Source: Candidatus Aminicenantota bacterium
GTDB lineage: Bacteria; Acidobacteriota; Aminicenantia; Aminicenantales; Aminicenantaceae
Length of the DNA: 64,000 nt
Assembly: GCA_014727835.1 (NCBI GenBank)
Contig: WJMT01000041.1
Location: 22,106-86,105, forward strand
Reading direction: 5' to 3'
The notes under the pieces were generated by a model that was given only the letters and a program-made list of their open reading frames with translations, was not told the origin of the DNA and ran no database searches. Position numbers and translations under genes: made by a program. Positions 1,720-58,682 of this stretch are shown piece after piece (the stretch's first letter is position 1; each line of letters opens with the position of its first letter).

Positions 1720-1774
1720 CCTGGACTATTCATAAAAAAATGACACCGCAATCTTGACTGGTGAATAATCCAGG
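1720..1774. repeat. Short inverted-repeat element, copy A (about 55 bp)
   Basis: CCTGGACTATTCA (1720-1732) facing TGAATAATCCAGG (1762-1774), 12/13 complementary; ends shared with copy B at 11952-12144. Confidence 0.75.
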
Positions 1775-11701: not shown

Positions 11702-11778
11702 TGGAGGCGCGGGTCGGATTCGAACCGACGAATCGAGGTTTTGCAAACCCCTCCCTTAAGCCGCTTGGGTACCGCGCC
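11702..11778 (-). tRNA. tRNA-Cys (GCA)
   Basis: Minus strand ggcgcggtacccaagcggcttaaggg-aggggtttgcaaaacctc-gattcgtcggttcgaatccgacccgcgcctcca; cloverleaf stems fold, anticodon GCA, encoded CCA. Confidence 0.92.
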
Positions 11779-11807: not shown

Positions 11808-11882
11808 TGGAGCGGACGATGGGATTTGAACCCACGACCTTCTGCTTGGCAAGCAGACGTTCTACCCCTGAACTACGCCCGC
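11808..11882 (-). tRNA. tRNA-Gly (GCC)
   Basis: Minus strand gcgggcgtagttcaggggtagaacgtctgcttgccaagcagaaggtcgtgggttcaaatcccatcgtccgctcca; anticodon GCC, encoded CCA. Confidence 0.95.
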
Positions 11883-11951
11883 TCTTTATGTTCCAAAACA
11901 GGCACTAGGATAGAGCTAAATTACCAGAAACTATAAAATCTGTCAACCTAA

Positions 11952-12144
11952 CCTGAACTCTTCATAAAAAAATGGCGATATTTTATTATTAATTTCATTT
12001 CAGCGATATACAAGATTTTTTTTAGAAACAATTATCTGAACATTTTTCTTGTTTATATTTTCAATTTTAATCGCCATTTTTTTACCATTAAGGCGAACCG
12101 ATCTTACGGCATCTGCAGCAAGCTTGATTTGTGAATAATCCAGG
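11952..12144. mobile_element. MITE-like element, copy B (about 193 bp), flanked by CTAA direct repeats
   Basis: Ends CCTGAACTCTTCA / TGAATAATCCAGG; second nested inverted repeat aaaaaaatggcgat / atcgccattttttt; CTAA at 11948-11951 and 12145-12148. Confidence 0.7.
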
Positions 12145-12245
12145 CTAATTGATCATTTCCTATTTCCATGATCAATCCTGTTTCCCTTATCCATCAAATA
12201 AGCTTAACTTCGGAATTAAATATACTCACATTCTTATAATGTTTA

Positions 12246-12274
12246 TTGACACACTCGAGGGAAAATTATATATT
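12246..12274 (+). promoter_or_regulatory. Sigma70-type promoter of the Yip1 gene
   Basis: TTGACA (12246-12251), N17, TATATT (12269-12274). Confidence 0.8.
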
Positions 12275-12308: not shown

Positions 12309-12890
12309 ATGGAATTAATACCTCGGATACAGGGAATACTTTTGAAACCTAAGGAAGAATGGGAAAAAATCAAACAACAGACTTTGAGTGTCTCTGATTT
12401 GTTCACCAAATATGCATTGATACTGATTGCTGTACCTGCTGTAGCCCAATTCATTGGGCGTGGCATCATTGGCTACAGTGTTCCTTTTGTAGGATGGGTT
12501 CGGTCTGGTATAGGAAGAGCACTGCTTCACGGTATTTTTTACTATGTATTGACAGCTGCTTCTGTCTATGTTTTGGGGATCATTATCAATGCGCTCGCTC
12601 CGTCATTTGATTCCAAACAAGACCAAGAAAAGGCCATGAACCTTGCTGTCTTCAGTATGACTCCTGCCTGGGTAGCCGGAGTGCTCTATATCATTCCTCA
12701 ATTATCCGTGCTGGTTCTGTTAGCTTCTCTCTACGGCATTTATATTTTTTACCTTGGATTTTCCTCTTCTATCATGGAAACCCCCAAAGAAAAAGTAGTG
12801 GGTTACTTTGCGGTTACTGTCATCGTTTCCATTGTTCTTTATGCTGTTATAGGACTGGTTCTGGGTGCTGTTTTTGCAGTGAGTGGGGGT

Positions 12891-12905
<15 letters not shown>
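12309..12905 (+). CDS. Yip1 family membrane protein
   Basis: ATG 12309 with aaggag RBS; MELIPRIQGILLKPKEEWEKIKQQ followed by five hydrophobic segments. Confidence 0.85.
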
Positions 12906-57892: not shown

Positions 57893-58632
57893 ATATTCAA
57901 ATCACCTCTTAACCAGACTTTTATGGTATGGAAGAGTTGTTCCTGCACAGCAATGACAATTTGCTCACTGATCAACTCCAGCAAGCAGAAAAAAGATACC
58001 ATAGCCTCTTCTAAGGTTTCTTGTTTGCTGAAATATTCGACAAAATCAAGATAAGATTGGTCGTTTAAAGTTTGCAAGATATCTTGTCTTTTTTCTTTCA
58101 CAGAAAACTCTTTTCCTGTGATGACTTTGATCGGCTCTTTCTGCTGCCTTTTCATAAGCTTAAAAAAAACTTCAGCCACATCAAACAAAGAGACCTCAAT
58201 AAAGTCAAGTTCTTGAAAAGACACTGATTGAGGAAGTGATTGTCTCTTCCATGTTTTGATCTGTTTATCCTCTTTTTCTCGTAAGATCTCACAGGCCGCT
58301 TTGATGTTTTGATAATCCAGCAGCCGGGCGACCAGATCTTTGCGCGGGTCTTGCTCTTGATCTTCAGAACTTTCTCTGGGAAGAAGCATCTTTGATTTGA
58401 TCTGGATAAGGAGAGCAGCCATGAGAAGAAATTCAGACTCTCTTTCCAGGTTGATGTGCTCTTTGTTCTCCAGATACTTGAGGTATTCCCTGGTGATGGA
58501 GGCAATGGGAATATCATGAATACTGATTTTCTTTTTTTTTATCAGGAAGAGAAGAAGGTCTAGAGGTCCTTGAAAAACTTCAAGGTTGATCTGATAATTT
58601 TGGGAGCTCTCCATTTTGCCTGGTCTATTCAT
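57889..58632 (-). CDS. scpA: Segregation and condensation protein A
   Basis: 247 aa; YQINLEVFQGPLDLLLFLIKKKKISIHDIPIASITREYL. ATG 58632 lies in a repeat end; MESSQN (about 58614) is an alternative start. Confidence 0.95.
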   Translation of the reverse strand: MNRPGKMESSQNYQINLEVFQGPLDLLLFLIKKKKISIHDIPIASITREYLKYLENKEHINLERESEFLLMAALLIQIKSKMLLPRESSEDQEQDPRKDLVARLLDYQNIKAACEILREKEDKQIKTWKRQSLPQSVSFQELDFIEVSLFDVAEVFFKLMKRQQKEPIKVITGKEFSVKEKRQDILQTLNDQSYLDFVEYFSKQETLEEAMVSFFCLLELISEQIVIAVQEQLFHTIKVWLRGDLNI

Positions 58633-58639
58633 AAAAAAA
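58619..58639 (+). repeat. Half copy (copy C) of the CCTGGaCTATTCATAAAAAAA repeat end
   Basis: CCTGGTCTATTCATAAAAAAA: 20/21 identity to the left end of copy A. Confidence 0.65.
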
Positions 58640-58682
58640 CAGTTTTATTCTGCCTGCAAGCCCGGATTTGATTTTTTTCATT

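Follow-up and report, generated by a model that had tools for sequence, protein, structure and literature searches.

A shortened MITE copy beside tRNA genes of an Aminicenantes bacterium: its family, probable IS1380 partner and conserved fold

The window analysed here, a 64,000-nucleotide stretch of a Candidatus Aminicenantota contig, contains a short non-coding element situated between two divergently oriented units, the minus-strand tRNA-Gly/tRNA-Cys genes and the gene of a Yip1-domain protein (Table 1). Each unit has a predicted promoter, and that of the tRNA genes is kept in a genome of the same genus. Judging by the sequence and this conservation, the insertion and the -35 box of the tRNA promoter would be 5 bp apart, with both promoters probably remaining intact. 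In the same-genus genome, the same tRNA-Gly/Yip1 locus (G001:C49) lacks the element: the likeness extends to the insertion-site CCT and restarts downstream. The left break is sharp and falls at the duplication; the right flank is too diverged for a base-exact second break.

The preliminary description of this locus reported CTAA on both sides and nested inverted repeats (11948-12148), which was borne out by direct reading of the sequence, as were the adjoining tRNA-Cys and tRNA-Gly genes and the absence of coding capacity, no ORF of at least 60 aa being found within the element. The terminal repeats, 14 bp long, are imperfect, as the reverse complement of the right one, CCTGGATTATTCAC, agrees with the left end at 10 of 14 positions. 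The inner inverted repeat, also of 14 bp, is perfect. No terminator was found in this copy. Thus, the element is short, non-coding and bounded by terminal inverted repeats, and, as there is no ORF inside and hence no encoded PF13701 transposase of the IS1380 insertion sequences, it is not an IS itself, being a presumed passenger.

The extent of 193 bp given earlier stands, but this value is not the length of the family unit, which is approximately 253 bp. The window copy equals 253 minus 60 bp: it has a single copy of the 8-bp repeat GCATCTGC, whereas full copies have two, 60 bp apart around the right hairpin. By this comparison, it is a shortened copy of the family unit with an internal 60-bp deletion.

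Table 1. Coordinates of the features in the window.
Feature	Position	Strand	Remarks
Minimal relative, 55 bp	1720-1774	+	both ends, CCTGGACTATTCATAAAAAAATG...TTGACTGGTGAATAATCCAGG; interior almost wholly deleted
tRNA-Cys gene	11702-11778	minus	
tRNA-Gly gene	11808-11882	minus	
Predicted tRNA-Gly/tRNA-Cys promoter	11946-11918	minus	TTGACA-17-TAATTT
Left target-duplication copy CTAA	11948-11951	.	read from sequence; fits family motif YTAR
Element, 193 bp	11952-12144	+	
Left terminal inverted repeat CCTGAACTCTTCAT	11952-11965	+	read from sequence; family consensus CCTGRNYTATTCAT
Left stem, 5' arm AAAAAAATGGCGAT	11966-11979	+	read from sequence; cross-genus covariation with partner arm (helix 3)
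Left stem-loop interior, AT-rich, 90 bases	11980-12069	+	little conserved between genera, mean identity 44%
Left stem, 3' arm ATCGCCATTTTTTT	12070-12083	+	read from sequence; covariation with 5' arm
Right-arm remnant, 47 bp	12084-12130	+	60-bp hairpin gone between GCATCTGC direct repeats; compared with full-length copies, e.g. L035:1243-1496
Right terminal inverted repeat GTGAATAATCCAGG	12131-12144	+	read from sequence
Right target-duplication copy CTAA	12145-12148	.	read from sequence
Predicted promoter ahead of Yip1-domain gene	12246-12274		TTGACA-17-TATATT
Yip1-domain protein gene	12309-12905		

In its own genome (3.1 Mb, 132 contigs) the element has 55 BLAST matches (best non-self E 1.9e-49), and there are 129 sites resembling the terminal repeats, compared to 20 for the reversed pattern used as a control; these numbers are well above chance and suggest that the genome holds roughly 50 elements. 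Among the relatives, matches were observed in 34 of 60 genomes, which represent 20 of 32 genera and belong almost entirely to the same taxonomic family; a second taxonomic family, f2, also carries members (G058). The named records with exact ends, among those listed, all belong to 'Candidatus Aminicenantes', and no copies were found in the collections of viral contigs, phages and plasmids searched. Thus, as far as the searched collections show, the family seems to be taxonomically confined. The literature searched (subscription papers and ISfinder aside) yielded no description of it; the one match that combined Aminicenantes and MITE was a general paper on underexplored prokaryotes.

The script picked out 88 long elements, of which 60 fall in the 251-254 bp range typical of full-length copies. 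Shorter modular variants are frequent, with lengths of 31, 40-56, 66-88 and 146 bp. The BOX and RUP repeats of Streptococcus pneumoniae are likewise modular, short and intergenic, with many internally deleted forms, but differ from the Aminicenantes MITE in sequence, ends, target site and partner IS family. Several other arrangements were also noted. A lone left end, CCTGGTCTATTCATAAAAAAA, at window positions 58619-58640 has no right end close by and is probably a decayed copy. At two loci, tandem copies share one common 4-bp flank (L035:1243-1496, GCCA; L006:1501-1754, CTCT), suggesting either duplication by unequal recombination or insertion beside a resident copy. The single-contig genome G014 (L207, L210, L211, L205) contains many elements of 34-40 bp with almost abutting ends at YTAR-like sites.

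An exact 4-bp duplication flanks 34 of 83 copies (flank permutation: mean 7.3, maximum 16), and YTAR is found in 80 of 166 flanks, compared to the background of 1.0% in loci at large. The preliminary description had interpreted the element as a MITE, a non-autonomous transposon, and had pointed to the number of copies, their target duplications, a partner transposase and an empty site as ways of checking this; the many dispersed copies, the fixed-length target duplication, the empty site in the same-genus relative and a partner family with matching ends in relatives support that interpretation. Bacterial MITEs such as QMITE2 of Coxiella burnetii have all of the following in common with it: they are short, AT-rich, intergenic and non-coding, with terminal repeats, target duplications and a foldable transcript (PMC10969869). 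A text search of that review turned up neither IS1380 nor Aminicenantes.

The transposase family had been left unassigned, and IS1380 fits best. PF13701 matches occur in 17 of 38 genomes of the taxonomic family. The genome G034 contains a complete IS1380 element (L221) of 1626 bp encoding a 446-aa transposase (NF033539, E 2e-119); its ends, CCTGAATAATTCATAAAAAAAGC / CCTGATTTATTCATAAATTG, match the MITE ends, and it has no clear target duplication itself. Ends of this kind also occur in IS1380 fragments of G021, G026 and G034, mostly beside TTAA, CTAA or TTAG, the exception being L240 (G021), preceded by TAGA. In the same-genus genome G001 there is a 233-bp IS1380 deletion derivative (L288) in which the transposase gene is kept over its first 26 codons (77% identity). 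As it has matching ends (CCTGGATTATTCAC / CCTGATTTGTTCAT) and CTAA on both sides, an IS1380 element with matching ends and target was evidently active in this genus.

The IS with these ends anticipated earlier as a partner is present in relatives (L221, L288 and L271, all IS1380) and absent from the own assembly, where no PF13701, PF13546 or PF01609 transposase was found and the search with the L221 transposase protein was also empty, so that an autonomous copy in this genome was rejected. MITE-rich genomes are mostly other than those with intact IS1380. Both this and the absence from the own assembly tell against IS1380 as partner, as does the lack of a clear target duplication at L221. Paired ends 0.4-3.5 kb apart were also collected from the relatives' loci (23 pairs), and the IS-sized ones, when checked, all flanked host genes.

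The MITE shares with the IS1380 insertion sequences of the same taxonomic family (PF13701 / NF033539) the outer 15-21 bp and YTAR-like targets, but it has no transposase gene and the remaining interior is unrelated. Since the likeness is limited to the outer 15-21 bp, the MITE did not simply arise by deletion from the IS observed. IS1247, an IS1380 element of Paracoccus, duplicates 5 bp (PMC3281130), in contrast to 4 bp in this MITE. IS1380 transposases form the outgroup in piggyBac trees (PMC10813416); the TTAA-type 4-bp target of the eukaryotic piggyBac elements resembles that of the MITE, although the presumed transposase is only distantly related to theirs, and the MITE target is YTAR, not strictly TTAA.

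Another family that duplicates 4 bp and prefers YTAR, such as IS5 or IS701, could be the partner instead. IS5 elements use and duplicate YTAR (PMC10359306), and PF01609 transposases are found in 22 of the 38 genomes. However, PF13546 is absent from all 38, hence IS701, the initial guess from YTAR, was rejected, and the PF01609 loci scanned (30 fetched), as well as the other PF13701 (IS1380) groups, contained no pair of such ends, except for the IS1380 loci L221/L333; no IS5 or IS701 element carrying such ends was seen in these genomes among the n = 30 loci. The one good end beside a PF01609 IS, a perfect left end at L330:631-667, belongs to a MITE into which this other IS had inserted. As both the ends and the target motif are present in IS1380 elements, an IS5 or IS701 partner is very improbable.

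Thus the feature in the window is very likely an internally deleted copy of an Aminicenantes MITE family served by an IS1380 transposase in trans, the IS1380 transposase being the most likely one to act on the 253-bp element. In this scheme, full-length IS elements would provide an IS1380-family DDE transposase in trans, these donors having since been lost from the lineage or their copies being absent from the assembly. The transposase would recognise the ends CCTGRNYTATTCAT and insert the element at a YTAR tetranucleotide with a 4-bp duplication, in this case CTAA next to the -35 box of the tRNA genes. Later, recombination or slippage at the two GCATCTGC repeats would have removed the 60-bp right hairpin from the window copy.

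For 28 full-length copies, RNAalifold predicts a three-way junction formed by the paired terminal repeats, the left stem, a small ACC-hairpin and a long right arm. Two-sided changes were observed in 25 of 54 pairs, with 105 such cells compared to 28.1 in shuffles (0 of 500 shuffles reach this value), and 94.9% of cells are paired, compared to 32-43% for slid partners, both controls ignoring phylogeny. With one copy per genus (14 genera), one Watson-Crick pair is replaced by another in 21 of 54 pairs. Compensated stems are exemplified by TGGCGAT/ATCGCCA, TGCCGAT/ATCGGCA and TGTCGAT/ATCGACA, and further by CAGGGCAT/ATGCCCTG, CAGCGCAT/ATGCGCTG and CAAAGGAT/ATCCTTTG, while L037 from the own genome has an entirely different yet complementary stem, TGCATGCAT/ATGCATGCA. 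Going by the sequence comparison, the fold is conserved over at least 14 genera despite the changes of letters. This covariation distinguishes the Aminicenantes element from the MITEs reviewed in PMC10969869.

Between genera, the ends are 92% identical, the left stem 76% and the left loop 44%; in the right arm, identity is 82% for the stems and 76% for unpaired positions. Free drift is thus seen in the left loop and not in the right arm. A single full copy has a folding z of -3.2 for the plus strand as RNA and of -5.3 for the minus strand as DNA, and that of the deleted window copy is -2.2. In genus g8 (L301:1388-1674, L306:1501-1787, L311:1361-1650, L319:1381-1672), another long palindrome (AAAAGAAGGGGTCAGAC/GTCTGACCCCTTCTTTT in L301) is situated in place of the right hairpin, the sequence being wholly changed and the palindromicity kept.

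As the stems covary between genera, the structure has been maintained in lineages that are still transposing, and the cross-genus covariation must stem from copies that kept transposing. We infer that the covarying fold was kept for its importance to such elements. There are three possible causes: selection for transposition at the DNA level, selection on a transcript, or correction of palindromes by template switching.

If imperfect palindromes were corrected by template switching in replication, the covariation would be mutational and the fold unselected. Copying from arm to arm would produce the observed excess of two-sided over one-sided changes (105 cells vs approximately 20), and short deleted variants (31-88 bp) are frequent, as this explanation would have it. 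On the other hand, conservation extends to the unpaired positions in the right arm (76% identity between genera, vs 44% for the left loop), and there are persistent bulges, neither of which would follow from correction by itself; hence we consider this explanation somewhat unlikely.

The preliminary description had set conservation as a transcribed structured RNA against the transposon reading. The two are not mutually exclusive: the element is both a MITE and, by covariation, structurally conserved. Taken further, that alternative would make the element primarily a structured RNA transcript (a regulator, an attenuator or an sRNA) carried by transposition, with the fold selected as RNA. Covariation spans the whole element and the predicted folds are stable. 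There are also two weak hints at the minus strand. In same-direction gene pairs, copies tend to be opposite to the genes (23 vs 11, the genes being uncurated ORFs picked by length), so that a strong orientation bias was rejected; and on the plus strand A.C mismatches outnumber variable G.U pairs (132 vs approximately 52, with a fixed U.G pair set aside), an excess dominated by few columns and related copies. However, G.U and A.C are balanced (18 vs 21) in the 14 genus representatives. No Rfam match exceeded the gathering score, and identity with a known RNA family was thus rejected. Moreover, no terminator was found in the window copy, which has also lost the best-conserved hairpin, and copies occupy divergent, convergent and same-direction gaps at about background rates. 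A primarily RNA-level role is accordingly unlikely.

What we tentatively propose, as one possibility, is to see the full-length 253-bp element as a mobile structured nucleic acid. Selection would act on its three-way-junction fold in copies still able to transpose, in many genera: the folded single strand could be recognised by the transposase or a host factor, or the transcript could work as an RNA thanks to which the element sits harmlessly between genes.

Overall, the MITE family is real, its partner is probably IS1380, and its conserved fold is unusually well supported. To our knowledge, a covarying fold of the whole element has rarely been shown for bacterial MITEs, and here it makes structural selection on such repeats testable. 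An uncultured bacterial group gains a testable non-autonomous transposon family with a likely IS1380 partner and the target motif YTAR, whose high copy number, together with contig breaks at the repeats, affects the assembly of Aminicenantes genomes.
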